From a virus, in IMG/VR virus record IMGVR_UViG_3300009425_003086, positions 1-54,187 of that record: 54,187 nt of DNA; one strand, written 5' to 3'. The stretch's first letter is position 1, and every line of letters starts with the position of its first letter. The position numbers were made by a program, and so were the translations under genes. Shown piece by piece: positions 30,700 to 45,663 of this stretch. Below the pieces are notes generated by a model that saw nothing but the letters and a program-made list of their open reading frames with translations, was not told the origin of the DNA and did not search any database.

Positions 30700-31515
30700 A
30701 TGGCAAAACATGTAGTTGTAAGTCTTAGTGGAGGGATGGACTCCTCAACATTACTATTAAGAGCATTAAAAGAGTACGATACAGTAACAGGTATCTCATT
30801 TGATTATGGTCAAAAGCATAGGGTAGAGCTACAAAGAGCACAATCATTAATTAATTATCTAGCAGATAATAATCATAAAGTAAAATATCGACAAATTAAA
30901 TTAGACGGTTTAGCAGATTTAATAGACTCAGCTTTAGTGGAAGGAGGAGATGACGTACCGGAAGGACATTATGAAAATGATAATATGAAAGAAACTGTTG
31001 TACCTAACAGGAATAAAATGTTTGCTTCAATTACTCAAGCAGTAGCATTATCAGTCGCAAATAGAACAGGAGAAATTTGTGATATTGCTTTAGGAATTCA
31101 TGCTGGAGATCATGCAGTTTATCCTGATTGTAGACAAGAATTTAGAGATGCAGATGATGCAGCTTTTAGAATTGGTAATTGGGAAGCTGATAAAGTAGGG
31201 TATTTTACACCTTACCTTGATACTGATAAATTAGGTATTCTTAAAGATGGTGAATATTTAGTTAAATGGTTAGGGTTAGATTTTGATGAAGTTTATAAGA
31301 GAACTAATACTTCTTACAAACCTTACCCTTCTGGTAATAGTGACTATAAGTCTGCTAGTAGTGTAGAACGTATTGAAGCATTCATAGTTTTGGATCGTAA
31401 TGATCCCGTACAATATGAAGACGAAACCGGACCAGTCGATTACAGTATTGCGAAAAACCATGTTAAAGAAATCTTAGAAAATCACACTCTTACAGCAGAC
31501 TTAGGAAGAGATTAA
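30700..31515 (+). CDS. queC: 7-cyano-7-deazaguanine (preQ0) synthase, QueC-like, zinc cysteines replaced
   Basis: 271 residues. The ATP pyrophosphatase loop SGGMDSS (10-16), FDYGQKH, VPNRNKMF and ALGIHAGDHAVYPDCR are typical of QueC, which converts 7-carboxy-7-deazaguanine to preQ0 with ATP and ammonia. Canonical QueC ends with a four-cysteine zinc site (TxxCY...CGxCxxCxxR). Here the matching segment (residues 202-224) reads TNTSY, then PSGNS and SASSVER, with Ser at or near each Cys position and no Cys at all. Other pathway genes lie at 35894-43001. It is separated from them by the sulfation genes. Confidence 0.88.
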   Translation: MAKHVVVSLSGGMDSSTLLLRALKEYDTVTGISFDYGQKHRVELQRAQSLINYLADNNHKVKYRQIKLDGLADLIDSALVEGGDDVPEGHYENDNMKETVVPNRNKMFASITQAVALSVANRTGEICDIALGIHAGDHAVYPDCRQEFRDADDAAFRIGNWEADKVGYFTPYLDTDKLGILKDGEYLVKWLGLDFDEVYKRTNTSYKPYPSGNSDYKSASSVERIEAFIVLDRNDPVQYEDETGPVDYSIAKNHVKEILENHTLTADLGRD

Positions 31516-31522
31516 CTAATAT

Positions 31523-32197
31523 ATGGAACACTTGTCTGAGAAGGTAGTATTTACATCAGAAGAATGTAGAAAGATATTAATTATTGCAACACCAAGATCG
31601 AGCTCTACAACATTAGCAAGAGAGTTAGGGAAGGTAATAAATGGTAAAGTAATATACGAACCATACAATAACTATCACCCGGTCTCATCTGCAATTAAAT
31701 TCGACTCAAGTGTGTTACCGGATAGAGTAGTAGTGAAGACAATGATTCACCACAGTCTTAAAGGAGTGGATAGATACGGTAAGACGTTAAATGATAGAAT
31801 GCAGAGCACCTTTTCTTTCTATCTGGAAGAAATAAAAAAATATGATAGGGTAATCTTACTTAGTAGAAAAGATATAAAAGGTGCATATGAAAGTTACAAG
31901 TATCATTTAGATACAAAACCACTAGGAAGATGGCACTCTCCTTACATGTATGAAAAAACAAATTTCGATGTTAGGGTTTATAATGAATTCTTAAAATGGA
32001 ATAGCGCTATAATAGAATTCTCATTAGAAACTGGAATAGAGATAAACTGGTATGAAGACCTATATAGCGGAGACCTAAAGGAATTTAAAGAAGTAGTAGA
32101 TCCCTGGAATTTAGGAGAGAGCTCTACTTCTATTTATAAGAAATTAACAAGTACAAAAAAATATAGGATCACTAATCAAAAAAATACATTAATATGA
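31523..32197 (+). CDS. Sulfotransferase-like protein, copy 1
   Basis: 224 residues. The N-terminal P-loop-like ATPRSSSTTLARELG (about 22-36) matches the 5'-phosphosulfate-binding loop of PAPS-dependent sulfotransferases. VILLSRKDIKGAYES (about 110-124) matches the 3'-phosphate-binding segment (Arg and Ser). It overlaps the APS kinase gene, which makes the PAPS donor, by 4 nt. The acceptor is unknown. Confidence 0.72.
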   Translation: MEHLSEKVVFTSEECRKILIIATPRSSSTTLARELGKVINGKVIYEPYNNYHPVSSAIKFDSSVLPDRVVVKTMIHHSLKGVDRYGKTLNDRMQSTFSFYLEEIKKYDRVILLSRKDIKGAYESYKYHLDTKPLGRWHSPYMYEKTNFDVRVYNEFLKWNSAIIEFSLETGIEINWYEDLYSGDLKEFKEVVDPWNLGESSTSIYKKLTSTKKYRITNQKNTLI

Positions 32198-32643
32198 TAT
32201 ATTGGTTTACAGGTCAACCCGCTCATGGTAAAACAGTACTAGCAAATTTGCTTAAAGAGCACTTAGAAAAGAATAAACTTTTTACATATAAATGCCTCAG
32301 AGTAGACGGCGATGATATGAGGGAGTTATTCTCTAATAAAGACTATTCAATTAAAGGACGAGTGGAAAATGTGGGGACAGCACAACGTATTGCTCACTAC
32401 CTTCATAACCAAGGAGAGGATGTTATTGTATCGTTAGTAGCACCCTATATTGATCAAAGAGAAGATTTTAAAAAACTATTAGGAGATAATATTAAAGAGA
32501 TTTATGTTCATACAACACAACGTAGAGAACGTGATCATTTTAAGGCTATAGCGTATTCAGCCCCTAAAGAGAACTTTATCGATATAGACACAACAGTGGA
32601 TACTCCCAACGAATCTTTTGAAAAAATACTCAAACAGATATAA
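32194..32643 (+). CDS. cysC: Adenylylsulfate (APS) kinase
   Basis: 149 residues. The P-loop is GQPAHGKT (7-14). RVDGDDMRELF, YSIKGRVENV and the QGEDVIVSLVAPY strand with QRE are signatures of CysC. It phosphorylates adenosine 5'-phosphosulfate to PAPS, the donor for sulfotransferases. The protein is somewhat shorter than bacterial CysC (about 200). No ATP sulfurylase is visible in the window, so APS would come from the host or another phage gene. It overlaps its neighbours on both sides (ATGA and TAATG). Confidence 0.88.
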   Translation: MIYWFTGQPAHGKTVLANLLKEHLEKNKLFTYKCLRVDGDDMRELFSNKDYSIKGRVENVGTAQRIAHYLHNQGEDVIVSLVAPYIDQREDFKKLLGDNIKEIYVHTTQRRERDHFKAIAYSAPKENFIDIDTTVDTPNESFEKILKQI

Positions 32644-32981
32644 TGGACAAGAAAGAAACATATTTCTGTGATATCGATGGAACTATCTTTAAATACAGAA
32701 AATTTGAAACTTATTTAGAATCAGAAGTTGAAGTAATAGAGTCTATGAAAGCTTATCTTATAGAAAAGAAAGCTCAAGGTCATATGATTATATTAACAAC
32801 AGCCAGACCCTGGGATATGGAATTACATACACAGTGGGAACTAAGTACAAACAGTATACCTTATGATAGGTTAGTTATGGGTATAGAAAGAGGTCCTAGA
32901 TATCTTATAAACGATATGGACCCTAAAAAACCAGGAGAAAGAGCAATATCAATTAATCTAATTAGAAACAAAGGAATATGA
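32643..32981 (+). CDS. HAD-superfamily phosphatase-like protein
   Basis: 112 residues. Motif I is FCDIDGTI (D10, D12), motif II is ILTTAR, and a late LINDMD segment could hold the metal-binding acidic pair. The short length without a cap domain fits small phage HAD phosphatases. It is embedded between APS kinase and a nucleotidyltransferase with overlapping starts, so it likely acts in the same small-molecule route. Hydrolysis of a phosphorylated intermediate is plausible but not shown. Confidence 0.75.
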   Translation: MDKKETYFCDIDGTIFKYRKFETYLESEVEVIESMKAYLIEKKAQGHMIILTTARPWDMELHTQWELSTNSIPYDRLVMGIERGPRYLINDMDPKKPGERAISINLIRNKGI

Positions 32982-33331
32982 GTAAATTCAGCTTATTTAT
33001 TGGAAGGTGGCAACCATGGCATGCAGGTCATAGATGGTTAATTGACCAGAGACTAAAAGAAGGTAAGAATGTATGGTTAGCAATTAGAGATATAGAACCT
33101 AATGAAAACCAACCTTGGACACCTCACGAAATACTAATGAATATATCAGAAGAACTAAAAGACTTAATATCAGAAGGAAGAGTAAAGATTACAATTATTC
33201 CTGATATTGAATCTATTAATTACGGAAGAGGAGTTGGATATGATATTATTGAGCATGTACCGCCCACAGAAATAAAAGAAGTATCAGCAACAAAGATTAG
33301 AGCTAAATTAAGAAAAGAAGGGAAATTGTGA
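32978..33331 (+). CDS. HxGH-type nucleotidyltransferase (NMN adenylyltransferase/cytidylyltransferase superfamily)
   Basis: 117 residues. GRWQPWHAGHRWL (10-22) contains the HxGH nucleotide-binding motif, and VSATKIRAKL near the C-terminus matches the ISxTxIR motif. GRWQP-x-H-x-GH is closest to the NadM/NadR type of NMN adenylyltransferase, but substrate choice cannot be read from sequence. It is translationally coupled to the HAD gene (ATGA) and to the second sulfotransferase gene. Confidence 0.72.
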   Translation: MSKFSLFIGRWQPWHAGHRWLIDQRLKEGKNVWLAIRDIEPNENQPWTPHEILMNISEELKDLISEGRVKITIIPDIESINYGRGVGYDIIEHVPPTEIKEVSATKIRAKLRKEGKL

Positions 33332-33840
33332 AATACCTAATAGCCACTGCAAGATCAGGATCAACTAACCTACAAAAATATTTAGGGAAGATAATGCCAT
33401 TAGAGCAAGTACAAAAAGCCCTAATACACAGAGTTCCTGAAAGGTATGGTTCTATGTTTGAGTATGCTGATAATTTACTAACTCATTTTCCAAACAGTTT
33501 TTTACTAGATAGAAGAGATAAACAGTTACAAGCAGAATCACTTTGTTTTAGAAAAATCAAATATGGAGATGCTTTTAAACACTACCACCATCAAGAATAT
33601 TACGATACTTTAAATGATGATTATATTTCTAATGCAATAATTAATTTCGAAGAGCAATCTAAGGTTATTAAAGAGATTAGTTTGAAATATAAAATTAATA
33701 TCTTATATTACGAAGACATCTTTAAGAATATAGAAAAAGTGCAAGAATTAGGTATTTATCATAAAAGACTCTATAATGAGTTTTTAGACCCTAAACATAA
33801 GTCACGGTTAATAAATCAAACACCAAAAACAATAGTATAA
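33328..33840 (+). CDS. Sulfotransferase-like protein, copy 2
   Basis: 170 residues starting with GTG inside the upstream stop region; no ATG fits the family N-terminus. KYLIATARSGSTNL (2-15) is the PAPS 5'-phosphosulfate loop, and FLLDRRDKQLQAES (about 58-71) is the 3'-phosphate segment. YYEDIF later in the protein matches IxYEDL of bacterial sulfotransferases. It is shorter than copy 1. Two transferases around one APS kinase suggest two sulfated sites or products. Confidence 0.65.
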   Translation: MKYLIATARSGSTNLQKYLGKIMPLEQVQKALIHRVPERYGSMFEYADNLLTHFPNSFLLDRRDKQLQAESLCFRKIKYGDAFKHYHHQEYYDTLNDDYISNAIINFEEQSKVIKEISLKYKINILYYEDIFKNIEKVQELGIYHKRLYNEFLDPKHKSRLINQTPKTIV

Positions 33841-34050
33841 ATGGTCGGTTACAGAAGACATATAGCAAAGACAGTATCATGGAGAATAATTGGTACATTA
33901 GATACAATAGTACTATCAGGATTAATAACAGGATCATGGACAACAGGGTTAACAATAGGAGGAATTGAAGTTATAACCAAAATGGTTTTATACTTTGCAC
34001 ATGAAAGAGCATGGTACCGCTTCAGTAAATTTGGAATAAAGAAGAAATGA
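33841..34050 (+). CDS. DUF2061-family small membrane protein
   Basis: 69 residues. HIAKTVSWRIIGTLDT, then a hydrophobic span, GIEVITKMVLYFAHERAW and a basic end match the DUF2061 family of two-helix membrane proteins. DUF2061 genes occur beside cysC/cysD/cysN in sulfate-assimilation loci of Bacteroidota (from general knowledge). Its place after APS kinase and sulfotransferases fits that link. It starts directly after the sulfotransferase stop and overlaps the carbamoyltransferase by 4 nt. Confidence 0.8.
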   Translation: MVGYRRHIAKTVSWRIIGTLDTIVLSGLITGSWTTGLTIGGIEVITKMVLYFAHERAWYRFSKFGIKKK

Positions 34051-35705
34051 GACAATTAGGATTATCAGCATTTTACCATGACTCAGCAGCCTGCTTAGTA
34101 GAGAATGGTAAAGTACTGTATGCAGTAGAAGAAGAAAGATTCACTCAAACAAAACACGACAGTGCATTTCCATATAACTCTATAGACTGGATTCTAAAAG
34201 AAGCTAAGTTAGAGATTGGCGATATAGATGAAGTATGTTGGTATGAACGTCCTAATGATAAGAAGAAAAGAGTAGATGAGATGTTTAGTAGACATCCATA
34301 CAAAACATTTTTCTTAAAAAGACAATTTCGAAAAGATTTTGAACTTAATAATCCAAAAGTTTTATTAGAAAATCATTATGGTTATAAAGGAAAGATTAAA
34401 TACATTCCTCATCATTTATCTCATGCTGCATTCGCTTATTACACCTCTAGTTACAAATCCGCTGCCATTCTAACTGTAGATGGAGTAGGAGAAGAACAAA
34501 CAATTACAATCAATAAAGGAACTGGTAATGATATTAAATTACTAAAATCAATAAACTTCCCTAACTCATTAGGGATGTACTACTCAGCTATGACTTCTTT
34601 CTTAGGCTTTAAACCTAATGAAGGTGAGTATAAGGTTATGGGACTAGCAGCATGGGGGAATAAAACTAAATATACAGAACAACTTTCAAAAGTATTTAAA
34701 CCTAAACTATACACGTTTGATATAGATTTAAAATACTTCCCTTGGGAGTATACTGATCAAATTATGTTTAATAAATCACTATGTAAACTGTTAGGAATGC
34801 CTAATCGACTACCTGAAGACGAGTTAACCCAAGACCACAAAGATTTAGCATCATCAGTACAGTATTTATATGAAAAATACTTTTTAAAATTAGTAGAACA
34901 TACTAAACATTTAACTAAGGCGGAGAATTTATGTTTATCTGGAGGATGTGCTTATAATGGAGTAGCCAATGGGAAAGCCTATAAGTATTTTAAGAGTATA
35001 CACGTGCCATTTGCACCCTCTGATGCAGGCTCAGCAATAGGAGCATGTTTGTATAGTAATAGTAAGAAAAGAGTAGATAATACATCTCCATTTTTAGGAC
35101 CTTCTTATAGTAGAGGTAGAATTGAAGAAGCTATTAAACACAATATGTTATATATTAAAGTATACAACCTAAAGGAAGATATAATGCTCAAAAGAGTGTC
35201 TCAAATGATTCATGCCGGAAGAATTATATGTTGGTTTCAAGGATCAATGGAATTTGGAGCTAGAGCACTAGGTAATAGGAGTATTTTAGCAACCCCATTA
35301 GACCCTAATATGACAGTAAAGTTAAACGCTATTATAAAAAAGAGAGAAGGGTTTAGACCCTTTGCACCTTCTATTATAGAAGAAGAAGCTAGTAAGTATT
35401 TTGATATGAATGAACCATCGCCGTATATGAGCTTTGTGTTTCCGGTAAAAAATAAATACCTAAAAGCTATTACTCATATCAACAATTCAGCTAGAGTACA
35501 GACAGTTAATAAGGATTTTAATCCTAAGTATTATAAACTACTAAAAGCGATGAAAACAGTATCTAATCATCCAGTAGTACTTAATACATCTTTTAACTTG
35601 AAAGATCAAGTTATAACAGATTCACCGGAAAGAGCTATAAAAAGATTTCTTTCTAGTGAAATGGATGCATTAGTAATTAATAATTTTTTAATATTTAAGA
35701 AATGA
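34047..35705 (+). CDS. Carbamoyltransferase (NodU/CmcH/TobZ family), copy 2
   Basis: 552 residues with the same two-domain design as copy 1 but clearly diverged. LSAFYHDSAACLV and EEERFTQTKHD open the N-terminal domain, followed by HHLSHAAFAYY (metal-binding His) and LTVDGVGEEQ. The C-terminal domain has MEFGARALGNRSI, REGFRPFAPSI and VLNTSFNLKDQ. Its N-terminus is more typical of the family than that of copy 1. It probably carbamoylates a sugar or nucleoside hydroxyl. It overlaps a 36-residue basic peptide gene at its stop. Confidence 0.88.
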   Translation: MRQLGLSAFYHDSAACLVENGKVLYAVEEERFTQTKHDSAFPYNSIDWILKEAKLEIGDIDEVCWYERPNDKKKRVDEMFSRHPYKTFFLKRQFRKDFELNNPKVLLENHYGYKGKIKYIPHHLSHAAFAYYTSSYKSAAILTVDGVGEEQTITINKGTGNDIKLLKSINFPNSLGMYYSAMTSFLGFKPNEGEYKVMGLAAWGNKTKYTEQLSKVFKPKLYTFDIDLKYFPWEYTDQIMFNKSLCKLLGMPNRLPEDELTQDHKDLASSVQYLYEKYFLKLVEHTKHLTKAENLCLSGGCAYNGVANGKAYKYFKSIHVPFAPSDAGSAIGACLYSNSKKRVDNTSPFLGPSYSRGRIEEAIKHNMLYIKVYNLKEDIMLKRVSQMIHAGRIICWFQGSMEFGARALGNRSILATPLDPNMTVKLNAIIKKREGFRPFAPSIIEEEASKYFDMNEPSPYMSFVFPVKNKYLKAITHINNSARVQTVNKDFNPKYYKLLKAMKTVSNHPVVLNTSFNLKDQVITDSPERAIKRFLSSEMDALVINNFLIFKK

Positions 35706-35812
35706 TAAAATGGATAAAGCGAAAAATCGCAGAATACAAAAGAGAGAAAGCATACCAAAGAAAGATTAAGGAATTAAAGAAAAGAGATCCTTTTACATAT
35801 AAAAACTTTTAA
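35702..35812 (+). CDS. Very small basic protein (36 aa)
   Basis: Starts at the ATGA overlap with the carbamoyltransferase stop. 36 residues, rich in Lys, Arg and Tyr, ending KKRDPFTYKNF. Short basic peptides ending in an RDPF-x-Y motif are, from memory, widespread in marine phages; function unknown. The coupled start and codon use like the neighbours argue that it is real. Confidence 0.55.
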   Translation: MIKWIKRKIAEYKREKAYQRKIKELKKRDPFTYKNF

Positions 35813-35819
35813 TGGGAAT

Positions 35820-35851
35820 AGTTGTTTATTAACAGTATATTTCTTATATTG
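35820..35851 (+). promoter_or_regulatory. Host-type promoter TTG-N20-TATATT (queD-queE-ferredoxin operon)
   Basis: ATAGTTG with TTG at 35822-35824 and TATATT from 35845 (TTCTTATATT), 20 bases apart. The leader to the queD ATG is the longest of the set (49 nt from the TATATT start). Confidence 0.65.
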
Positions 35852-35893
35852 TATATGACAATAGTGTCGTAGCACCACTTTAAAAACACTAAT

Positions 35894-36361
35894 ATGAATA
35901 AATTTCAATCTACTAAAGTCTTCGATGGCTTTTCTACTGTTTTTCGACAGTGGCGTGCAGAATCAACACACTGCAAGTACCTTCATGGATATGGAATATC
36001 TTTTAAAATTTGGTTCGAAGGAGAATTAGACGAACGCAATTGGGTCTGGGATTTCGGAGGAATGAAAAGAGCAAAAGGTCAAATTGATGGAAAATCTGCT
36101 AAAGCATGGATGGACCATATGTTCGACCATACTTTCCTTGTAGCCGAAGATGATCCTTTCTTAGAATCTTTTCTTAAAATGGATGAAGCAGGAGTAGCTC
36201 AGGTAAGAGTAATCCCCGCAACAGGAGGAGAAAGATTCGCTCAATTTATATACGATAAAATAAATCCTTTTATCTTAGAGGAAACCGAAAATAGAGTAAA
36301 AATAGCAAGAGTAGAATTTAGAGAACACGCAAAAAATACAGCAATCTATGAGCCTAGGTAG
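35894..36361 (+). CDS. queD: 6-carboxy-tetrahydropterin synthase-like (QueD)
   Basis: 155 residues. FRQWRAESTHCKYLHGYG (17-34) carries the catalytic Cys27 and a zinc His31, in the HGY version of the usual HGH. LDERNWVWDFGGMK, MFDHTFLVAEDDP and a C-terminal VEFREHAKN complete the fold. The Glu near the C-terminus and the FDHT His/Asp are the usual proton-relay residues. It makes 6-carboxy-5,6,7,8-tetrahydropterin from dihydroneopterin triphosphate. The 3' end overlaps queE by 14 nt, and FolE (first step) is at 38024. Confidence 0.88.
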   Translation: MNKFQSTKVFDGFSTVFRQWRAESTHCKYLHGYGISFKIWFEGELDERNWVWDFGGMKRAKGQIDGKSAKAWMDHMFDHTFLVAEDDPFLESFLKMDEAGVAQVRVIPATGGERFAQFIYDKINPFILEETENRVKIARVEFREHAKNTAIYEPR

Positions 36362-37127
36362 AGTAGAAGACTACGAAAAGAACTTACCAATTGTAGAGAT
36401 ATATACCGCAGTACAGTCAGAAGGCTCAAGAGCTGGTTACCCAACTGTGGTAATAAGAACTACTGGTTGTACCCATAGATGCTACTTTGGTGAAGGAGGT
36501 TGGTGTGATAGTTGGTATACTTCTATTCACCCGGAAAAAGGCCAATACTGCTTCAACGACATTATTGCAGCGTATAAGAAAAACCCTCATATAACAGAAA
36601 TGATGCTAACTGGAGGATCTCCTACGATGCATGGAAAACTTGTTAATGAACTAACCCACTTTGCTAATGAAAATAATATATTTATTACAATCGAAACTGA
36701 AGGAAGTCATTTTCTCCCTACGGATTATCCTATCAATCTGCTTTCTATCAGTCCCAAATTCTCTAATTCGGTACCTGTACTTGGAGTGGCAACACCACAA
36801 GATAAGATTACGGACGAAAGGATGATAAAACAACATAATAAGTTTAGACTTAATTATAAAGCAATAGAAAACTCAATAAATTATCATTTAGATTATCATA
36901 TTAAACCGGTATGGGATGGAAAAGACGAAGAAGCTTTAATTGAAATTCTTAGTTTTAATACTAAACTTAAAATTCCTAGAGATAAGGTGTACTTTATGCC
37001 AGCAGGCGACACTAGAGAAAGTTTACAAAAATCATATCCATTAGTATTTGACTGGGTAAGGGATAATGGACATAGAATGACCTGGAGACCACATATCATA
37101 GCCTTCGAATCCCAAAGAGAAGTATAA
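36348..37127 (+). CDS. queE: 7-carboxy-7-deazaguanine synthase (QueE), radical SAM
   Basis: 259 residues. [17 protein letters not shown] and TVVIRTTGC open a QueE-type radical-SAM fold, and [12 protein letters not shown] is the SAM-binding GGE-like region. The cluster cysteines are C41, C45 and C53 (C-x3-C-x7-C), with YFGEGGW inserted between the second and third. The canonical spacing is C-x3-C-x2-C. It converts carboxytetrahydropterin to 7-carboxy-7-deazaguanine and needs an external electron donor. The last base of its stop is the first base of a ferredoxin gene. Confidence 0.88.
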
Positions 37128-37438
37128 TGAGTTATATAATAGGAAATGCCTGTGTGAGTACTTGTGACACCTCCTGTGTAAATGTCTGCCCAGTTGCTTG
37201 TATTCACGGCCCTATTAATATAGATGGAGAAGGAGCAGAAGTTGCAAATATGACAAAAGAAGAGCTTATAGGAAAGAGCTTATATATTAATCCTGATGAA
37301 TGTATTGACTGTGGAGCTTGCATCCCGGAATGTCCTGTCGACGCAATATATGGATCAGAAGAAGAAGCAATAGAAGCAGGAGAATTAAAAGCAGTTAACA
37401 ATAATTATGAATTTTTTAATTTAAAATATGACAAATAA
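37127..37438 (+). CDS. Two-cluster ferredoxin (FdxA-like)
   Basis: 103 residues. The first cysteine set is C9, C13, C17, C21-Pro and C25; the second is C59-x2-C62-x2-C65-x3-C69-Pro, the standard 4Fe-4S pattern. The order and the [20 protein letters not shown] region resemble FdxA ferredoxins with one 3Fe-4S or 4Fe-4S and one 4Fe-4S cluster. It shares a base with the queE stop (TAATG). That coupling suggests it feeds electrons to the radical-SAM cluster of QueE. Residues 26-55 form an acidic insert between the clusters. Confidence 0.9.
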
Positions 37439-37604
37439 CGATTTTATACAATGGTGCAGAGGTTTTGTAAATGGAGCACATTCATTTAATATTTTACCAA
37501 AGCAGTGGACAGAATTTAAAGAAAAATTAACAACCGTTAAGGATAACACTCCAACAACATGGATCACTACACCAGGATGGTCTCAAACTACAACATGGGA
37601 GTAA
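37428..37604 (+). CDS. Small conserved-looking phage protein (58 aa)
   Basis: The ATG lies in the last codons of the ferredoxin gene (11-nt overlap), and the stop overlaps the start of the phosphoribosyltransferase gene by 10 nt. 58 residues with [13 protein letters not shown] at the N-terminus, then [15 protein letters not shown]. The pattern dFixWlxGF...Q...Ik..L is one I recall from small proteins of marine T4-like phages, function unknown. The tight overlaps support translation. Confidence 0.6.
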
Positions 37605-37999
37605 AAAAAATATACTTAACTTATGATGATGTAGATTCTTTATTAGATAAGATTTATGAACAGGTAGAGGATGAAGGTTTTAAACAAGTAACTGGAATTC
37701 CAAGAGGAGGAACTATTCTCGCCATTTTATATTCTCATAAATACGGAATAAAATATACTCATAATATAGTTAACGAATCAGACCTATTAGTATTAGATGA
37801 TATAGCAGATTCAGGAGCTACTCTAAAAAAGGAGAGTGAACTCTACCCTGATGTTACGTTTGCTACTCTACATTATAAAGCTGAGTCAGTATATGAACCA
37901 GAGTATTACGCAAAATACATTATTGCAGAGTATGGCTGGGTTGTGTACCCATGGGAGCAAAGTAATTCAAATCCCATACAAGATTATTTGGAAAATTAA
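37595..37999 (+). CDS. Phosphoribosyltransferase-like protein
   Basis: About 134 residues from ATG 37595. An in-frame ATG at 37559 lies deep inside the preceding small gene, and the added residues look unstructured. VTGIPRGGTILA and LLVLDDIADSGATLKK form the PRPP-binding site of type I phosphoribosyltransferases. The substrate is unknown: nucleobase salvage is the usual role. The location between the ferredoxin and folE allows a role in handling released guanine or a deazaguanine, which is speculation. Confidence 0.75.
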   Translation: MGVKKIYLTYDDVDSLLDKIYEQVEDEGFKQVTGIPRGGTILAILYSHKYGIKYTHNIVNESDLLVLDDIADSGATLKKESELYPDVTFATLHYKAESVYEPEYYAKYIIAEYGWVVYPWEQSNSNPIQDYLEN

Positions 38000-38017
38000 A
38001 AAAAAATTCTTATATTA
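37986..38017 (+). promoter_or_regulatory. Host-type promoter TTG-N20-TATATT (folE)
   Basis: TTG at 37988-37990 and TATATT from 38011, 20 bases apart. The folE ATG is 13 nt after the TATATT start, so a leaderless transcript is likely. Confidence 0.55.
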
Positions 38018-38023
38018 AGATAT

Positions 38024-38734
38024 ATGAAAAGATTTATAGAAGGAACAGAATTAGTTAAAGCAGGTTATGCTAACGGAATATCAACACAGTTAGCAGATTT
38101 ACAACCTGAGTTCGGAATGCAAGCATCTTTGACAGCAAAAGAAAAGCAAGGCATAATAGATTTAGCAGCAGTACAGTATGGAAACTTTCTAACTGCACTA
38201 GGTTGTGATTGGAAGAATGATCCTAACTCATCTGATACTCCTATGAGAGTAGCAAAAGCTTATGTTAATGATTTATGGAAAGGAAGATATGAACCATTGA
38301 CAGACATTACAACATTCCCATCAGATGGTTATGACGGAATTGTACAAGAGAGCAATATACCTTTAACTTCTATGTGCTCTCACCATCACCAGACAATTGG
38401 AGGTAGAGTAAGTATAGCATATGTTCCATCTAAAGATGGTAAGGTAGTTGGTCTGTCTAAACTAAACAGGATAGTAGAACACTTTGGAAGACGAGGAGCA
38501 ATACAAGAACAATTAACAGTCGCTATCTGGAACGCAGTAAATAAAATATGTGAAGGAAATATAGGAGTAGCTGTAATGATAGATGCTACTCATAATTGTG
38601 TAAGTTGTAGAGGAATAAAACATCACAGCGCATCAATGCAGACAGCAAAACTTACAGGCTGCTTCTTAGACGAATCTTCAGCTAGAGCAGAATTTTATAA
38701 TAATATTAAATTAGCATACAAGTGTAAAAATTAA
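38024..38734 (+). CDS. folE: GTP cyclohydrolase I (FolE)
   Basis: 236 residues. SDTPMRVAKAYV, SMCSHHHQTIGG (zinc Cys/His), VVGLSKLNRIVEHFGRR and THNCVSCRGI (zinc Cys) are all standard FolE motifs. The N-terminal 50 residues are an extension before the TAKEKQGIIDLA helix. It converts GTP to dihydroneopterin triphosphate, the first step of the 7-deazaguanine route completed by QueD, QueE and QueC nearby. Folate synthesis is the alternative use, but the neighbours favour deazaguanine. Confidence 0.93.
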   Translation: MKRFIEGTELVKAGYANGISTQLADLQPEFGMQASLTAKEKQGIIDLAAVQYGNFLTALGCDWKNDPNSSDTPMRVAKAYVNDLWKGRYEPLTDITTFPSDGYDGIVQESNIPLTSMCSHHHQTIGGRVSIAYVPSKDGKVVGLSKLNRIVEHFGRRGAIQEQLTVAIWNAVNKICEGNIGVAVMIDATHNCVSCRGIKHHSASMQTAKLTGCFLDESSARAEFYNNIKLAYKCKN

Positions 38735-38739
38735 AAATA

Positions 38740-38856
38740 ATGAATATAAAAAGACAAATTGCTGTAATTAATCAATCATATAAAATAAATAAAAGATTAC
38801 AAGTAATAGAAAAGAAAATTGATATAGTATTAGAAAAAATTAAAAATAATGAGTAA
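38740..38856 (+). CDS. Small helical peptide (38 aa)
   Basis: Starts 5 nt after folE and overlaps the next gene by 8 nt. 38 residues, Ile/Lys/Asn-rich, probably one amphipathic helix. Overlap with the next start suggests translational coupling. Function unknown; low composition complexity leaves some doubt. Confidence 0.4.
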   Translation: MNIKRQIAVINQSYKINKRLQVIEKKIDIVLEKIKNNE

Positions 38857-39415
38857 ACAATTAAAATTATTTCCAGATGAAGCAGATCACGTATGGGTTA
38901 ACGATTACGTTCCATTCGTATCAGAAGTAGAAAAATTTAACGACGTATTTAATAAACCTAACAATTATGAGCCCACTATTCCGATTAAAAAAGAATGGCA
39001 ATTCGTATACGACTTTATCCTCGAAGAACTTGAAGAATATAGAGAAGCTTGCGAACGAGGCGACATTGTGGAAATTCTGGACGCTTTGTGCGATATTGCT
39101 TATGTTTCCCTTGGGAACGGTACTATGTTACATGGCCTTAAAGACAAGATATGGCCAGCCTATCAAGAAGTACAAGGAAGTAATCTTAGTAAAGCTTGTA
39201 AAACTAAAAAAGAAGCCATACAGACCGTCAGCGAAAGAAGTCAGGAGCAAAGTGAGGCCTGTCATTTTGAGAAAGTTGAGGAAGGAAGGTATATTGTCTA
39301 TAGAACAAGAGACAGAAAAGTAATGAAAAGTATCAACTACTATAGACCAGACCTTACTCAATTCTTTACAACTGATGAGTTAAAGAAATTTCACCAACCT
39401 GAAGCAATTATATAA
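38849..39415 (+). CDS. MazG-like NTP pyrophosphohydrolase
   Basis: 188 residues. EELEEYREACERGD followed by EILDALCDIAYV is the ExxE...ExxD metal-binding pattern of all-alpha NTP pyrophosphohydrolases (MazG/HisE/dUTPase-2 superfamily). The N-terminal 45 residues and a C-terminal 60-residue extension with YYRPDLTQFF are extra. It could hydrolyse non-canonical or excess nucleotides, or lower ppGpp-related alarm nucleotides as proposed for cyanophage MazG. Overlaps of 8 and 1 nt tie it to its neighbours. Confidence 0.75.
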   Translation: MSKQLKLFPDEADHVWVNDYVPFVSEVEKFNDVFNKPNNYEPTIPIKKEWQFVYDFILEELEEYREACERGDIVEILDALCDIAYVSLGNGTMLHGLKDKIWPAYQEVQGSNLSKACKTKKEAIQTVSERSQEQSEACHFEKVEEGRYIVYRTRDRKVMKSINYYRPDLTQFFTTDELKKFHQPEAII

Positions 39416-39630
39416 TGAGCCTTAAATTAGAAGAACACGTAGTTTATATAGAATCAATGAAAACTGATATGATTCCTTATAGTGTAGTTAAACAATATTT
39501 AGTAGAGACAGTTGCAGAGCAACAACCTGCATTAGATAATATTACTAATACAGTCCAGAAAGCAGAGACCGAAATATTTACTGCGTTAAATGACTTAACA
39601 AAAGAACTTGGGAACCTAAATAAGTTATGA
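39415..39630 (+). CDS. Small coiled-coil protein, function unknown
   Basis: 71 residues, starting on the last base of the MazG-like gene and overlapping the transglycosylase gene by 4 nt. The second half is a heptad-rich helix (TVQKAETEIFTALNDL). No family is recognised. Its place directly before dpdA in an overlapping operon could mean a partner role, with no direct support. Confidence 0.55.
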   Translation: MSLKLEEHVVYIESMKTDMIPYSVVKQYLVETVAEQQPALDNITNTVQKAETEIFTALNDLTKELGNLNKL

Positions 39631-40421
39631 TAAAAATAGCACACGAAAGTCCTAAAAGTATATTTAATAAAGTTCAACAGTATACTGATTATGATTATGC
39701 TTTAGTACATTTGTTTGAAGAAGATAAAGAATACTTGCAGCAATTCAAAACTGCAATTTCGAATGGACGTGAAGTTATTTTAGATAATTCAATATTCGAA
39801 TTAGAAGAAGCATTTGATGCTGAAGAGTTTGCTAAATGGATTAAACATTTAAAACCTACCTGGTATATAGTTCCGGATGTATTAGAAAATAGTGTTAAGA
39901 CTCAAAGTCAAATGTATTCTTGGTTATTTGATCACAAAAACTTACCCGGTAAGATGATTGGAGTAGTACAAGGTAAAACATATGATGAAATAGTAAGTTG
40001 TTATAAATATATGGATAGATCTGCAAATGTAGATATGATAGCAATATCTTTTGATTATTCGTATTACACAAAATCTTGTCCTCATCCTAATAAGTATGTT
40101 AGTTGGATGCTAGGACGTGTTAAGCTACTAGGAGATCTACTAAAAGACGGTATTATAAACACTGATAAACCTCACCACCTATTAGGAAGTTCATTACCTC
40201 AAGAATTTAGTTTCTATAAAAATTCTAATTACGATTGGATATATTCTTTAGATACTTCTAACCCAATAGTACATGGTATTAAAGGTATTGAATACGGTAC
40301 TGACGGTCTTTGGGATAAGGAATCTCAAAAGTTATTTGAATTAATAAATTATAAAGTTGAAGATTGTAATAAGATAATGACTAATTTACAGAAATTTAAA
40401 TGGTTTACTAATGGAAACTAA
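39627..40421 (+). CDS. dpdA: DNA guanine transglycosylase (DpdA-like, TGT fold)
   Basis: 264 residues, about the length of short phage DpdA proteins. Motifs follow the TGT barrel: VILDNSIFE (Asp53 at the base-binding Asp position), YIVPDVL, IGVVQGK, MIAISFDYS, HHLLGSS and YSLDTSNPIVHG (Asp209 as a candidate nucleophile). There is no zinc-binding CxCxxC, which separates it from bacterial tRNA TGTs. DpdA enzymes exchange guanine in DNA for preQ0 or preQ1. It overlaps a formyltransferase gene by 11 nt and lies among folE, queD, queE and queF. Confidence 0.82.
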   Translation: MIKIAHESPKSIFNKVQQYTDYDYALVHLFEEDKEYLQQFKTAISNGREVILDNSIFELEEAFDAEEFAKWIKHLKPTWYIVPDVLENSVKTQSQMYSWLFDHKNLPGKMIGVVQGKTYDEIVSCYKYMDRSANVDMIAISFDYSYYTKSCPHPNKYVSWMLGRVKLLGDLLKDGIINTDKPHHLLGSSLPQEFSFYKNSNYDWIYSLDTSNPIVHGIKGIEYGTDGLWDKESQKLFELINYKVEDCNKIMTNLQKFKWFTNGN

Positions 40422-40959
40422 ATTTTGGATAGCATTCTTTAGTCAGACAGGAGCAGAAATAGCAGACATAGCAGAAAGACTTGGCAGATGGCCTGATAGA
40501 ATTATTACTAATGAAAGACCTGATCACCTTAGAACTATAGACCCTAGAATAGAAGAGAAAGGTTATTTTACATTTAATAATAACCCTACAGAAGACGATT
40601 ATTTAGAAGTATTACAGTATATACCACAAGCTTTTATTACTCTGCATGGTTGGTTAAGAATAATACCTAAAGAAGTATGTATTACCCATGAGATATATAA
40701 TGGCCACCCAGGATTAATTACTAAATACCCAGAACTTAAAGGTAAAGATCCTCAAATGAGAGCATTTAAAGCTAAACATAAGGTAATGGGTTGTGTTATA
40801 CATAAAGTTACTGCTGGGGTAGATGAAGGAAAAGTACTAAAAGAAATATATTTTAATGCTTGGAGAATTACAGAAGAAGATATGTGGAAAACTTTAAAAG
40901 ATAGATCTTTATATCTCTGGGATGAATTTTTAACTAAATTACTAGGTATTCACAAATAA
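40411..40959 (+). CDS. Formyltransferase-like protein (DpdN candidate)
   Basis: 182 residues. The PurN/Fmt catalytic triad is in place: N97 and H99 in YNGHPGLITKYP, and D138 in AGVDEGKVL. ITLHGWLRIIPKEV and VMGCVIHKVTAG match the formyl-folate-binding core. The gene overlaps the dpdA-like gene by 11 nt. A formyltransferase named DpdN was proposed for phages with 7-(formylamino)methyl-7-deazaguanine in DNA; this gene, with QueF present, fits that role. A sugar N-formyltransferase is the alternative, since the phage has many glycan genes. Confidence 0.78.
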   Translation: METKFWIAFFSQTGAEIADIAERLGRWPDRIITNERPDHLRTIDPRIEEKGYFTFNNNPTEDDYLEVLQYIPQAFITLHGWLRIIPKEVCITHEIYNGHPGLITKYPELKGKDPQMRAFKAKHKVMGCVIHKVTAGVDEGKVLKEIYFNAWRITEEDMWKTLKDRSLYLWDEFLTKLLGIHK

Positions 40960-40988
40960 TTTTCGTATATTAAAATAAAAGTTATATA

Positions 40989-41507
40989 GTGATAAAAAGA
41001 ATAGCATTAGTTGGAGCAAGCAGTACTGGTAAAACTACTGTTTATGAATTACTAAAAGGTAGGTTACCTAAATACGAATTCGTAAATGAATCTACTAGAA
41101 CTATAGGTAATTATGGATTTCCTATTAATGAAAAAGGAACAGATGCTACTCAATTAGCTATCAGTTGTTTTCATTTAGAAGCTTTACTTCAATCTCATAA
41201 TCAAGTATTAGATAGATGTTTTATGGATGTTGTAGTTTATTCTGCTTATATGGCAGATATAGAAGATATAACTTATCGATATATAGAAGATACTTGGAAT
41301 AGAATAAAAAACGAATATACCCATTACATATACTCTCCTATTGAATTTGATTCAGTAGATGATGGCACTAGGAGTGTAGATGAAAAGTGGAGAAAGAAAA
41401 TAGATACTAAATTTGTGGAGGTATTAAAAGGCATACGTCAGCCCTATTTGACGGTAACGGGCTCTCCTATGCAAAGGGTAGAGCAAATACTAAAATTTAT
41501 AAATTAA
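40989..41507 (+). CDS. P-loop kinase/ATPase of NadR-kinase type (AAA_28-like)
   Basis: 172 residues from GTG at 40989; no ATG lies upstream of the P-loop. The Walker A is GASSTGKTT, followed by FVNESTRTIGNYG and VLDRCFMDVVVYSAYM. This layout matches AAA_28/NadR C-terminal-type kinases. Ribosylnicotinamide or deoxynucleoside phosphorylation is possible. An HxGH nucleotidyltransferase of NMN adenylyltransferase type is encoded at 32978, so an NAD-salvage pair is conceivable. A TTTCGTATATT element lies just upstream (40961-40971). Confidence 0.65.
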   Translation: MIKRIALVGASSTGKTTVYELLKGRLPKYEFVNESTRTIGNYGFPINEKGTDATQLAISCFHLEALLQSHNQVLDRCFMDVVVYSAYMADIEDITYRYIEDTWNRIKNEYTHYIYSPIEFDSVDDGTRSVDEKWRKKIDTKFVEVLKGIRQPYLTVTGSPMQRVEQILKFIN

Positions 41508-41512
41508 ATAAT

Positions 41513-42088
41513 ATGAAAAACCTAACATTAATATTAATACTACTATTTTCATCTACTAGTGGGATAAGTCAAATAGTTGAAACAGATATATTTAGGGTAG
41601 AGTATAGTCAATTCAAAGAACAGCCATTATGGGTTGAATATGTAGTACAATGTCCTAACGGAAAAGCATCAAGAGTAGGAATGGATTTTTGGGAACCAGA
41701 AGGTATTAGAACTTCTGATGATGATGATTATAAAGGCAATATATACGATAAAGGTCATCTAGCACCAGCAGCAGCCTTTAGTTGTAATAAAGAGATGTTA
41801 CTTAAAACATTCTCATACCTAAACTCAGCTTTACAGCATGAGGGATTAAATAGAGGTCAATGGAGTAGATTAGAAACTTTTGAAAGAGATGCTTCAAACT
41901 TTTTTGGTGAAGAAGTTAAGGTAAGAGTAGACGTTCTATTTGAAGGTGAGTTAGAAGTATTACCAACTGGTGCAACAGTCCCATCAGGATTCAGAAAAAC
42001 TATTACTATTGGGAATACAGAGAGAGTGTTTGAATTTCCTAATATAGATACTAAAGGAACAAAGTGGGTAGATTATATAATAAAATAA
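41513..42088 (+). CDS. Exported DNA/RNA non-specific endonuclease (NUC superfamily)
   Basis: 191 residues. A signal peptide covers about residues 1-20 (hydrophobic LTLILILLF, then SGISQ). DKGHLAPAAAF (79-89) is the DRGH catalytic motif with His82 as general base. N104, Q108 and N113 followed by WSRLE supply the metal-binding and structural residues of the Serratia-nuclease family. It would act in the periplasm or outside the cell, degrading DNA and RNA. A role in excluding other phages, scavenging nucleotides or cleaning released DNA is possible. Confidence 0.82.
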   Translation: MKNLTLILILLFSSTSGISQIVETDIFRVEYSQFKEQPLWVEYVVQCPNGKASRVGMDFWEPEGIRTSDDDDYKGNIYDKGHLAPAAAFSCNKEMLLKTFSYLNSALQHEGLNRGQWSRLETFERDASNFFGEEVKVRVDVLFEGELEVLPTGATVPSGFRKTITIGNTERVFEFPNIDTKGTKWVDYIIK

Positions 42089-42092
42089 TAAA

Positions 42093-43001
42093 ATGAGCAA
42101 AGTAAAAAATTATCAAGAAGTAATAGATATTGCATCAAAACATTTAGGAAAGGTAGGAGGATCTGGATATAAGGATACCTACTCTCCTGAACTACTAGTG
42201 AAAATACCTAGAAATTTAAATAGACAAGGTTATGGATTAACTGGATCTGAATTTGTAGGGGTAGATACTTGGAATGCTTACGAAGTATCGGCAATCACAA
42301 CTAAAGGACAACCTGTGGCAGGTATGTTGAAGATTGTATGTAATGCCTCATCTGAATTTCACGTAGAATCTAAGTCTATAAAACTATACCTAAACTCATT
42401 TAATATGACTCGTATCGGCGATACAGCAGCAGACTGTATTACAGGTATTGAAGCAAGAGTAAAGAGAGATTTAGATGAACTACTAGACACTACAACTACA
42501 GTAACATTTTATGGTTCTGATTTAGAAACAGAACCAATGTCATTTGATAGTTATGAAGATATTGCTGAATTGACAGATTTAGATACTATAGATTTTACAG
42601 CATTCGAATCAGATTCAAATCAATTAGACGTAGAAGAACATAATCAAACATCAGAGATCAAATGGACTTCTAACTTATTAAGGTCTAACTGTAGAGTTAC
42701 AAACCAACCCGACTGGGGAGATATTTACATTAGAATAAAAGGCAAAAACCTACCAACACCAGCATCTATTGCTAAATATATTGTTAGCCACAGAACTGTA
42801 AGTCATTTTCACGAAGAGATATGTGAAATGGTGTATAAACACCTTTCTGATGCATTTGAACCTGAGAATTTAATGGTAGCATGTCTTTATACCCGAAGAG
42901 GAGGTTTAGATATTAATCCAATTAGAGCAACCCATACCTACCTAATACCCGAATTCTTTACTAACCCGGAATTTATAATTCAAAAAACACTGAGACAGTA
43001 A
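42093..43001 (+). CDS. queF: NADPH-dependent preQ0 reductase (QueF, long type)
   Basis: 302 residues, near the long E. coli-type QueF (282). SSEFHVESKSIKLYLNSF holds the QueF motif ESKSxKLY (92-99). LRSNCRVTNQPDWGD has the active-site Cys200. VSHRTVSHFHEEICE matches the substrate-binding FHExC region. The enzyme reduces the nitrile of preQ0 to the aminomethyl group of preQ1 using NADPH. In this phage it would supply preQ1 for the DpdA-like transglycosylase. It shares one base with the next gene. Confidence 0.9.
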   Translation: MSKVKNYQEVIDIASKHLGKVGGSGYKDTYSPELLVKIPRNLNRQGYGLTGSEFVGVDTWNAYEVSAITTKGQPVAGMLKIVCNASSEFHVESKSIKLYLNSFNMTRIGDTAADCITGIEARVKRDLDELLDTTTTVTFYGSDLETEPMSFDSYEDIAELTDLDTIDFTAFESDSNQLDVEEHNQTSEIKWTSNLLRSNCRVTNQPDWGDIYIRIKGKNLPTPASIAKYIVSHRTVSHFHEEICEMVYKHLSDAFEPENLMVACLYTRRGGLDINPIRATHTYLIPEFFTNPEFIIQKTLRQ

Positions 43002-43264: not shown

Positions 43265-43296
43265 AGTTGTTTTCCTGCAATATTTTTCGTATATTT
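43265..43296 (+). promoter_or_regulatory. Host-type promoter TTG-N20-TATATT (DNA polymerase)
   Basis: TTG at 43267-43269 and TATATT from 43290 (TTCGTATATTTAT), 20 bases apart. It overlaps the 5' end of a longer open frame and so supports ATG 43324 as the polymerase start. Confidence 0.65.
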
Positions 43297-43323
43297 ATAG
43301 TATATAAAATTGATAAAACGGTT

Positions 43324-45663
43324 ATGGAGTTAGAAAAAAAATATTACACAGTCCAAGATAAAGAGACTTTAAATCTATTATACAAACACATTACTGACTC
43401 AGATGTAATAGCAGTCGATACTGAGACGACTGGGCTAAATCCTCGAAAGAATAAAATCGTAGGATGGTCTGTTTCCGGAGATGAAGGTGTAGGGTTTTAC
43501 TTACCCACTCTAGTATATAATTTTGAAGCCGATGAACTTCAAGTACAGACGATAGATGGACAATCTACAGAAGTAATCTCCAAAAACCTACTTAAACTAC
43601 TTAAAGGAAAGAAACTAGTATTTCATAATGCTTCCTTTGATGTTCAGTTCATAAAAAATTACTTCGGAGTTGACCTTATAGAAGATATATGGGTTGATAC
43701 TGGTTTACTTGTTCATACTGTCTATGAAGAAGGAGCCTTTGGATTCGGAAATCCATTTGGCCTAAAATCAATCGCTATTATGAATCAGGAAGCTCTAGGC
43801 CTGAACGTAGAAGAAGCAGCCAACCAAGAGCAAATAGAACTAAAAGAATCAATAAAGAAAAATGGTGGAGAAACTACTAAACTTAAGTATGAAATATATA
43901 AAGCAGATCTTGACATACTTTCTAAGTACGCTGCTGCTGATACTGACCTTACCCTTCGTATTTGTAATTTATATTTGGGTAAACTTAGAGATGAAGGCTT
44001 GGAAAAATTCTTCTTTGAAGAAGAGGTAATGCCTGTGTATCGTGAAGTTACTGTACCTATGGAAGCTACTGGAGTAGACCTAGATATGGACCTACTTCAT
44101 GAAACTCATAAAAACATCACAGTAGATTTAGCGAAGAATAAAAAAATAGTAATGAAGAGCCTACTAGATACTTCAGAAGCTAAGAAATGGGTTGTAGATA
44201 CATCTATGTCTACTTACCCCCCCTCTCATAAAGGTAATTGGGCACAACAACTAGCTATAAGGTATTCTCTATCTTTACCTAAGAGTGAAAAGACTGGTAA
44301 GTTTTCTATTACATCAAAACATGTAGAAGCTTTAGATGACGGGCCTGTTAAAGAGTTCTTAAAGACTGGAGATATTGAATTATTAGATAGTTTAGAAGTA
44401 GCTCGTATTTCTATGTCGATGTGGAAAGAATCTAATGACGGAGACCATATTAATATTCAATCCAAAAAACATTTAGGAGAAATCTGTTTTAAGTATATGG
44501 GTATTAAAGCTAAGTCTCAAACAAGAAAAGGACAAGATCAATTCGATATGAGCATGTTGGAGGTATTATCAAAGACTTATGCTTGGGCAGAGAATCTACG
44601 TATCTATAATAAACTACTAAAGATTAAATCTACTTATGTAGATAGGTTTATAGATAGGTCTGAAGATGGCAGATACTACTTTTACTTTAAGCAGAACGGT
44701 ACTGTATCAGGTAGGTATGGATCAGATGCTCAACAATTACCTAAAACTAAAGAAGAAGGAGAAGATGCTCCAATTATCATTAGGTATAATAATATAGTAA
44801 GAGCATTTCTAATTGCTGGAAAAGGACGTAAAGTAATCGATTGTGATTACGAATCTTTAGAACCACATTGCTTTGCATCAGTATCAGGAGACAAAAAATT
44901 ACAAGAAATCTTCAACAACGGATGGGATTTTTATTCTTATGTTGCTATTCAAACTGAAAAACTAAACGAACAAAGAAAAAGATTTCCTAACGGAGTATCA
45001 GCAGATAAGAAAGCAGATAACTACCTTAAGAAACTAGATGTAACAGCACGTAATAAAGCTAAAGCCTATTCATTAGGGGTAGCATACGGAATGGAAGCAT
45101 TTGCTCTTAAGATGACATTAGGAGTAGACCAAAAGACTGCTGAAGGACTTATAAAAGGTTACTTAGAAGGATTCCCAGGCTTAGCTGAATGGAGAGAAAA
45201 TTCTAGACTTCAAGTTAAAGCTCATGGTTATATTAAAAATTCTGTTGGTAGAGTAAGGCATTTACCTAAAGTGCAGAAGATCTACACTAAGTATCAAGAT
45301 CAATTCTTAGATTGGAGATTTAGAAAGAACTTAGAACCTCAATATGGTAGAGCTCAAGTATTACAGGTATATAGAGACTTTAGAAACGGACTTAATAACT
45401 GTTTAAACTTTCAACTTCAGTCATTAGCAGCATCAGTGGTAAATAGAGCTGCAGTCAAGATTAACTTAAAGGCTAAAGAACTAGGGATAGATGCAATTGT
45501 TCAAGCACAGGTTCATGATCAATTGATTATTAATATTGCAGAAGAAGATGCAGATAGATTTGCACCCTATGTACAAGAGCTTATGGAAACGACTACTGAA
45601 TTAGAAGGTGTAACCTTAAAAGCACCTCCAGAGATAGCGAATAACTGGCAAGAAGGCCATTAA
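43324..45663 (+). CDS. DNA polymerase I-type (family A) replicative polymerase with 3'-5' exonuclease
   Basis: 779 residues from ATG 43324; the longer open frame would translate the promoter. The exonuclease has DTETTGLNP, VFHNASFDVQF and YAAADTDLTL (all three acidic motifs). The polymerase has motif A DYESLEPH (D508, E513), motif B RNKAKAYSLGVAYG (K580, L584, Y588) and motif C QVHDQL (H731, D732). Leu584 sits at the E. coli Phe762 position, a substitution common in marine phage polymerases. No 5' FEN domain is fused; the Rnh-like gene at 18947 supplies that activity. This is the likely replicase of the phage. Confidence 0.92.
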   Translation: MELEKKYYTVQDKETLNLLYKHITDSDVIAVDTETTGLNPRKNKIVGWSVSGDEGVGFYLPTLVYNFEADELQVQTIDGQSTEVISKNLLKLLKGKKLVFHNASFDVQFIKNYFGVDLIEDIWVDTGLLVHTVYEEGAFGFGNPFGLKSIAIMNQEALGLNVEEAANQEQIELKESIKKNGGETTKLKYEIYKADLDILSKYAAADTDLTLRICNLYLGKLRDEGLEKFFFEEEVMPVYREVTVPMEATGVDLDMDLLHETHKNITVDLAKNKKIVMKSLLDTSEAKKWVVDTSMSTYPPSHKGNWAQQLAIRYSLSLPKSEKTGKFSITSKHVEALDDGPVKEFLKTGDIELLDSLEVARISMSMWKESNDGDHINIQSKKHLGEICFKYMGIKAKSQTRKGQDQFDMSMLEVLSKTYAWAENLRIYNKLLKIKSTYVDRFIDRSEDGRYYFYFKQNGTVSGRYGSDAQQLPKTKEEGEDAPIIIRYNNIVRAFLIAGKGRKVIDCDYESLEPHCFASVSGDKKLQEIFNNGWDFYSYVAIQTEKLNEQRKRFPNGVSADKKADNYLKKLDVTARNKAKAYSLGVAYGMEAFALKMTLGVDQKTAEGLIKGYLEGFPGLAEWRENSRLQVKAHGYIKNSVGRVRHLPKVQKIYTKYQDQFLDWRFRKNLEPQYGRAQVLQVYRDFRNGLNNCLNFQLQSLAASVVNRAAVKINLKAKELGIDAIVQAQVHDQLIINIAEEDADRFAPYVQELMETTTELEGVTLKAPPEIANNWQEGH

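Follow-up and report, generated by a model that had tools for sequence, protein, structure and literature searches.

A conserved phage gene block with a probable route to formylated preQ1 in DNA

Described pathways and the phage locus

Cui et al. reportedly described, in 2023, a formylated preQ1 base, the name DpdN, and a DpdA subfamily, DpdA3, in which replacement is complete. In that DpdA/DpdN pathway, QueF, DpdA and a formyltransferase go together, and the same combination is found in the DNA analysed here, virus record IMGVR_UViG_3300009425_003086 of IMG/VR (positions 1–54,187; this whole stretch of 54,187 nucleotides is called the window below). The cassette examined in this work probably makes 7-(formylamino)methyl-7-deazaguanine (formyl-preQ1) in phage DNA with the phage's own enzymes, and the window is most likely a further case of this already known DNA modification. 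Another described system, the dG+ pathway of Enterobacteria phage 9g (DpdA1), resembles the window in that its transglycosylase gene shares a block with those for FolE, QueD, QueE and a QueC-type enzyme. It differs in having a Gat-QueC in place of the window's QueC plus QueF and no kinase within 3 kb, and its DpdA is not alignable by profile with that of the window (a comparison with the window's transglycosylase family found nothing). Hutinet et al. 2019 (PMC6884629) reported dPreQ1 from phages encoding proteins of the QueF type and did not settle whether the free base is the substrate of QueF.

A cultured phage, Flavobacterium phage vB_FspM_immuto_2-6A (immuto, an Immutovirus), carries the order QueD-QueE-phosphoribosyltransferase (PRT)-FolE-hydrolase-DpdA-formyltransferase-kinase-QueF-PolA-GroES-GroEL, with small genes between, and shares it with the window through PolA. 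Its QueC lies about 10 kb upstream of the block, that of the window being likewise upstream, and the unusual motifs of the window's QueC, QueD and QueE recur in it; DpdA is 74% and the formyltransferase 50% identical between the two. The window also has a ferredoxin gene behind queE, a pair of carbamoyltransferase genes and, between the kinase gene and queF, a nuclease gene, all of them missing from the corresponding places in the part of immuto that was read. According to a review (PMC11500664), the discoverers of Immutovirus noted genes putatively for modified nucleotides. In Campylobacter phages CP220 and CC_R7, DpdA belongs to the family found in the window (phrog_19058) and the next gene downstream encodes an AAA_28 kinase; unlike the window, they showed no formyltransferase or QueF in the stretches read; in CP220, an HD-AAA_33 gene lies upstream of the DpdA-kinase pair.

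A first-pass annotation of the window, made from its letters alone, had named seven genes (FolE, QueD, QueE, QueC, QueF, a transglycosylase and a formyltransferase) and proposed that the phage makes preQ1 or formyl-preQ1 entirely by itself. All seven open reading frames (ORFs) begin where it had put them, and the profiles agree with its names, in the case of the transglycosylase through the fold; the overlap of 11 nt that it had noticed is also present, DpdA ending at 40421 and the formyltransferase starting at 40411. Its gene assignments, the self-sufficiency and the preQ1/formyl-preQ1 interpretation withstood tests by profile, fold, synteny and co-occurrence, and no placement of the transglycosylase or the formyltransferase in an unrelated family was obtained. 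The kinase, the MazG-like and XGPRT-like genes, the ferredoxin and the cultured relative with an equivalent set are additions to that annotation. What did not stand is the description of the genes as scattered over 12 kb: QueD to QueF form a single 7.1-kb stretch (35894–43001), only queC lying apart, 4.4 kb upstream. Gene order within this stretch is identical in 33 of the 34 window-clade representatives with enough flank, and it is therefore a block rather than a scatter.

In the proposed route, FolE, QueD, QueC and QueE, the last possibly assisted by the ferredoxin of the phage, would convert GTP to preQ0, and QueF would convert preQ0 to preQ1. The compact DpdA-type transglycosylase would then swap guanine for preQ1, and the PurN-like formyltransferase would transfer a formyl group from a formyl-tetrahydrofolate to the amine of preQ1, either ahead of the base exchange or following it. 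An enzyme similar to xanthine-guanine phosphoribosyltransferase (XGPRT) may recycle the released guanine. Each of these activities is predicted, as is the presence of the base in virion DNA, where it might serve as protection from host nucleases. The observations behind this reading are the genes themselves, the fold of the transglycosylase, the fold of the formyltransferase with its Asn-His-Asp (N-H-D) triad, the conserved gene order and the coupling of formyltransferase and QueF.

Comparative counts come from two scans for relatives, each of which kept its best 80 loci, so that near relatives are over-represented in them. A profile scan found DpdA relatives in at least 434 stretches among 600 candidates (the best 80 kept); on our reading, the formyl-preQ1 route would belong to a gene block of wide occurrence. 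From 171 DpdA loci, 96 representatives were taken at 90% identity, leaving out the window's own copy (L001); 27 with less than 3 kb on a side were dropped, and family-wide counts refer to the remaining 69. The window clade comprises 44 representatives dereplicated at 93% identity, 34 of them with enough flank. A scan of genome contigs gave one relative, in a contig of a metagenome-assembled genome (L180), and the DpdA of phage BSTP8 used as query against viral contigs gave none. The formyltransferase alone as query yielded two loci, because single sequences reach close relatives only.

Base exchange and formylation

The transglycosylase (264 aa) matched nothing in Pfam or NCBIfam, and its profile, built from 38 sequences, found nothing in the PDB at E≤1; its DpdA-type membership therefore rests on the structural model. 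As modelled by AlphaFold2 (pLDDT 89.7, pTM 0.88), the protein has the fold of tRNA-guanine transglycosylases (TGT). In VIA-align, the best match was the archaeosine TGT of 1iq8 (Z 17.7, rmsd 2.9, 232 residues), followed by the Z. mobilis TGT (Z 17.6), and Foldseek ranked TGT 3hfy first and the DNA preQ0 insertase DpdA 7ui4 second. The protein is assigned to phrog_19058, labelled 'unknown function', and its homologue in immuto is annotated as a DNA guanine transglycosylase. The same phrog also holds the CP220 protein; those of CC_R7 and BSTP8 are more remote, and that of phage MA9V-3 is linked by tblastn only. Four aspartates (52, 88, 136 and 205 in CP220 numbering) are invariant in all ten transglycosylases compared, which represent five lineages. 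At one locus (L143:6572-8231), two adjacent DpdA-family genes stand ahead of the formyltransferase.

A TGT fold in the company of QueF, which is established to make the substrate of bacterial TGT, might also mean that the role of these genes is to raise queuosine levels in the tRNA of the host and not to modify DNA. Yet the transglycosylase has no sequence match to TGT structures and lacks the CxCxxC motif, its neighbours are nucleotide kinase, MazG-like and polymerase genes, and formylated preQ1 would be useless for queuosine. We considered this explanation, without a search for queA or queG, and rejected it as highly improbable.

The model of the formyltransferase (pLDDT 90.2) has the fold of glycinamide ribonucleotide (GAR) transformylase, and Asn97, His99 and Asp138, the triad known from active formyltransferases, do not vary in any of the 34 relatives compared. 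The enzyme is a distant relative of PurN, reaching 43.3 bits against the NCBIfam PurN equivalog, far under the cut-off of 150.1. Its distribution follows that of QueF. Family-wide, the formyltransferase is present in 49 of the 69 representatives, all 49 with QueF within 3 kb of DpdA; QueF itself occurs in 55, and a formyltransferase without QueF in none (Fisher p 2.5e-10, shared ancestry ignored). Nineteen of the 49 come from outside the window clade, and the 37 representatives there divide into these 19 with both genes, 5 with QueF alone and 13 with neither. Five of the 20 that lack a formyltransferase within 3 kb (L115, L119, L123, L139 and L153) carry it, with the kinase and QueF, 6.1–7.7 kb off. 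So constant a pairing points to a preQ1 formyltransferase, which needs QueF, whereas a purine-synthesis enzyme does not.

Alternatively, the DNA might carry plain preQ1, the formyltransferase acting on some other amine, that of GAR or of a surface sugar. The distant kinship with PurN and the presence of glycosyltransferase genes in the window would suit such a role, but the unbroken association with QueF, the usual position between DpdA and the kinase, the low PurN score and the replacement of the enzyme by GNAT domains in three lineages all make it unlikely.

These replacements bear on the preferred reading, formyl-preQ1 in phage DNA, since a GNAT acetyltransferase domain at the position of the formyltransferase is what would be expected if this slot acts on an amine. 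The three lineages concerned lack the formyltransferase. In the first, the kinase is fused to a C-terminal GNAT domain (L063, 6123-7079; L064, 10331-11287), which scores 28.1 bits with Acetyltransf_10 in L064 and 18.3, under the cut-off of 23.6, in L063; a profile that took the L063 GNAT tail as its seed also captured the fused kinase and was discarded. The second (L174, 8788-9360) has a 190-aa GNAT protein (Acetyltransf_1, 21.9 bits; cut-off 20.7). In the third (L056, L067 and L068), the slot encodes a protein of 508 aa that carries a GNAT domain at its C-terminus and matches HAD weakly, and a Glyoxalase_4 protein comes next; the GNAT domain reaches 44.1 bits (cut-off 20.7) in L068 (6918-8812). 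Elsewhere the slot is empty, with the order DpdA-kinase-QueF (L103, L105, L109 and L127, and L107 judging by distances), or is a gap with no ORF of at least 45 aa (L145). At L117 (8791-10794), the slot next to DpdA holds an unassigned ORF of 277 aa, after which come the kinase gene and a GTP cyclohydrolase gene of the folE2 type (PF02649, 4.1e-34), and neither formyltransferase nor QueF was found there; in L097, formyltransferase, kinase and QueF are all absent near DpdA. Judged from these gene contents, decoration of the preQ1 amine would be interchangeable, being absent, formyl, acetyl or another acyl. The GNAT genes are predicted candidates for undescribed N-acyl preQ1 bases, and phages bearing them in the slot would be expected to carry acetyl-type preQ1 bases.

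Precursor synthesis

A candidate gene is present for every step from GTP to preQ1, in agreement with the claim of self-made preQ1. QueF aligns with the preQ0 reductase of PDB 3bp1 (7.6e-43) and retains the ESKS and SNC...NQPDWG stretches. QueE reaches 23.8 bits with Pfam Radical_SAM (cut-off 29.5), and the ferredoxin encoded next to it is a possible electron donor. A shortened S-adenosylmethionine synthetase is encoded at 46008-46958 (metK, 7.7e-76 and 255.5 bits, below the cut-off of 309.4), and its product could supply S-adenosylmethionine to QueE.

The metal sites of three of these enzymes are unusual. Neither in the window nor in immuto does QueC have the CxxCxxC cluster seen in 9g Gat-QueC and in CC_R7 QueC, and the residues replacing the cysteines are invariant in all 15 clade sequences. 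QueD has LHGY where 9g has LHGH, Tyr33 being invariant in 30 of 30, and QueE has CX3CX7C (Cys 41, 45 and 53, invariant in 36 of 36 relatives) where 9g, BSTP8 and MA9V-3 have CX3CX2C. Such sites may be functional variants; otherwise, some of the chemistry would be different. If the divergent enzymes fell short of preQ0, the phage might use host preQ0 or make a related base. The altered motifs themselves speak for such a shortfall, but their conservation argues for a selected function, and the full set of genes is kept together; we regard the shortfall as very unlikely.

Several further points weigh against formyl-preQ1 made wholly by the phage. Because of the unusual metal sites in the clade, the activities of QueC, QueD and QueE are less certain than their names. 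QueC scores 130.6 bits against TIGR00364 and QueF 239.1 bits against TIGR03138, below the cut-off of 150.3 and the equivalog cut-off of 293.45, respectively. QueF occurs without the formyltransferase in 6 of the 69 representatives, and neither lies within 3 kb in 14; the p-value for their co-occurrence is subject to the limit of ancestry stated with it. Finally, the invariant aspartates of the transglycosylase are putative counterparts of the two catalytic aspartates of TGT.

Nucleotide kinase and neighbouring genes

DpdA of this family is accompanied by a small kinase gene within 3 kb in 58 of the 69 representatives (55 recognized by the AAA_28 profile and 3 solely by a P-loop motif; a chance match within the L172 QueF ORF is not counted). 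In 52 representatives the distance is at most 1 kb; for other ORFs of at least 200 aa at the same loci, the figure is 6 of 103, and none of eight 9g-type DpdA loci, of which about five are distinct, has a kinase within 3 kb. The kinase profile gave four weak matches in the PDB, a NadR-type enzyme first. Among the 11 exceptions, five have their kinase 6.7–7.1 kb off, together with formyltransferase and QueF, five (L143, L144, L160, L172 and L175) have a DUF3310 protein, and L097 has neither.

A DUF3310 protein stands between formyltransferase and QueF in all nine of the 96 representatives that have both of these genes and no nearby AAA_28 kinase. Of the nine, three were scanned with Pfam, and all three match DUF3310 (34.3, 32.1 and 38.5 bits; cut-off 24), the other six being recognized by profile only, and the remaining profile matches were confined to L130, L002 (13 kb from DpdA) and L095. 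The whole records of seven of the nine contained no AAA_28 kinase, though records may be fragments. DUF3310 is the domain found in T7 gp1.7, which, according to two papers, phosphorylates dGMP and dTMP, one of them noting DUF3310 (PMC7693777, PMC12846349). The exchange of one kinase type for another at a constant position suggests that a deoxynucleotide kinase is required here. We found no published description of this exchange, nor of the slot swaps described above, in a literature search that did not cover Cui et al. 2023.

The kinase raises the possibility that the same product is reached before replication: the MazG-like enzyme would convert dGTP to dGMP, the base would be exchanged on dGMP, the kinase would act towards the triphosphate, and the polymerase would incorporate it, guanine being replaced throughout. 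The frequency of the kinase beside DpdA, the exchange of kinase types and the polymerase genes adjoining DpdA or the kinase in BSTP8 and CC_R7, or following QueF in immuto, all favour this order of events. The TGT-fold enzymes known so far, however, work on polymers. Of the window clade, 31 of 32 representatives have a MazG-like gene no more than 3 kb from DpdA, against none of the 37 others, though Pfam PRA-PH gave 3 matches among 69 further neighbouring ORFs at 12 loci of other clades; the MazG-like profile found no match in the PDB. The searches found neither type of kinase in L097. Moreover, the kinase could serve nucleotide recycling, which is common in phages, and its substrate is not settled by sequence. 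Charge, tried as a sign of a nucleotide-level transglycosylase, does not discriminate, the median pI being 5.3 for the 96 representatives and 5.64 for 9g DpdA. On balance, we think exchange on the nucleotide possible but doubtful.

A broader proposal, which we put forward tentatively and hold to be rather unlikely as a whole, is that the phrog_19058 DpdA family is pre-replicative throughout. It would combine a dGMP transglycosylase with one of several exchangeable amine acyltransferases (of formyl, acetyl or 508-aa GNAT/glyoxalase-fold type), a dedicated kinase and, in the window clade, the MazG-like enzyme; guanine would be replaced throughout by a family of N-acyl preQ1 bases, some of them undescribed. 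It predicts that the neighbouring kinase accepts modified dGMP, and if so, guanine replacement would shift from finished DNA to the nucleotide pool. The logic would then match that of the diaminopurine phages, and the central enzyme would be a transglycosylase. In the diaminopurine (dZ) pathway of PurZ, MazZ and DpoZ, nucleotide-pool enzymes and a family A polymerase likewise lie near the base-making enzyme; the window is unlike it in that the base exchange would fall to a TGT-fold enzyme, and pre-replicative action is here only a proposal.

The features of the window that belong to, or adjoin, the predicted formyl-preQ1 cassette are collected in Table 1.

Table 1. Genes of the predicted formyl-preQ1 cassette and adjoining genes (positions in the window; last column, occurrence among the 34 window-clade representatives with enough flank)
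Feature	Position	Strand	Evidence	Of 34
queC (preQ0 synthase)	30700..31515	+	Pfam QueC PF06508 5e-38; no CxxCxxC	14 (often beyond flank)
queD (6-carboxytetrahydropterin synthase)	35894..36361	+	PTPS 5.9e-16; phrog_2389 1.2e-41	26
queE (7-carboxy-7-deazaguanine synthase), CX3CX7C	36348..37127	+	phrog_2076 3.6e-50	32
Ferredoxin	37127..37438	+	Fer4 domains	14
XGPRT-like	37559..37999	+	PDB 1vdm and several XGPRT chains	31
folE (GTP cyclohydrolase I)	38024..38734	+	Pfam 6.5e-43	34
MazG-like nucleotide pyrophosphohydrolase	38849..39415	+	PRA-PH 8e-10; phrog_671 4.5e-27	33
DpdA-type guanine transglycosylase (phrog_19058)	39627..40421	+	TGT fold (model); immuto homologue 74%	
Formyltransferase, putative preQ1 formyltransferase (DpdN-like)	40411..40959	+	Formyl_trans_N 1.1e-11; GAR transformylase fold	31
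AAA_28 P-loop kinase, putative deoxynucleotide kinase	40989..41507	+	AAA_28 2e-17; phrog_2107 'thymidylate kinase' 5.7e-23	34
DNA/RNA non-specific endonuclease, between kinase and queF	41513..42088	+	Endonuclease_NS 1.9e-22	
queF (preQ0 reductase, bimodular)	42093..43001	+	QueF_N 4e-28 + QueF 1.3e-16	34
Family A DNA polymerase, 3' of block (true start may be later)	43267..45663	+	ORF; immuto and relatives alike	

The XGPRT-like protein reaches 2.2e-10 and 40.3 bits with the NCBIfam xanthine phosphoribosyltransferase family, below the cut-off of 138. The endonuclease has, by eye, a signal-peptide-like start and possibly takes part in host DNA breakdown. At the place of the polymerase, immuto has a gene annotated as DNA polymerase family A. 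The GC content of the window is 31–37% in 2-kb steps, and no tRNA genes were found across it.

Two carbamoyltransferase genes with both Carbam_trans_N and Carbam_trans_C (Pfam) lie upstream of the block, at 26682-28307 and 34047-35705, and a gene of this kind is upstream of the block in 10 of the 34 window-clade representatives. A phage carbamoyltransferase acts on 5-hydroxymethylcytosine, according to a published paper (PMC8670742), and a second base modification in the window is therefore possible, but no thymidylate synthase-like gene was noted there. Between 31523 and 33840 are APS-kinase-like (3.4e-18), HAD-like and cytidylyltransferase-like genes, flanked by two ORFs that look sulfotransferase-like by eye and have no Pfam match; these genes perhaps serve surface chemistry.

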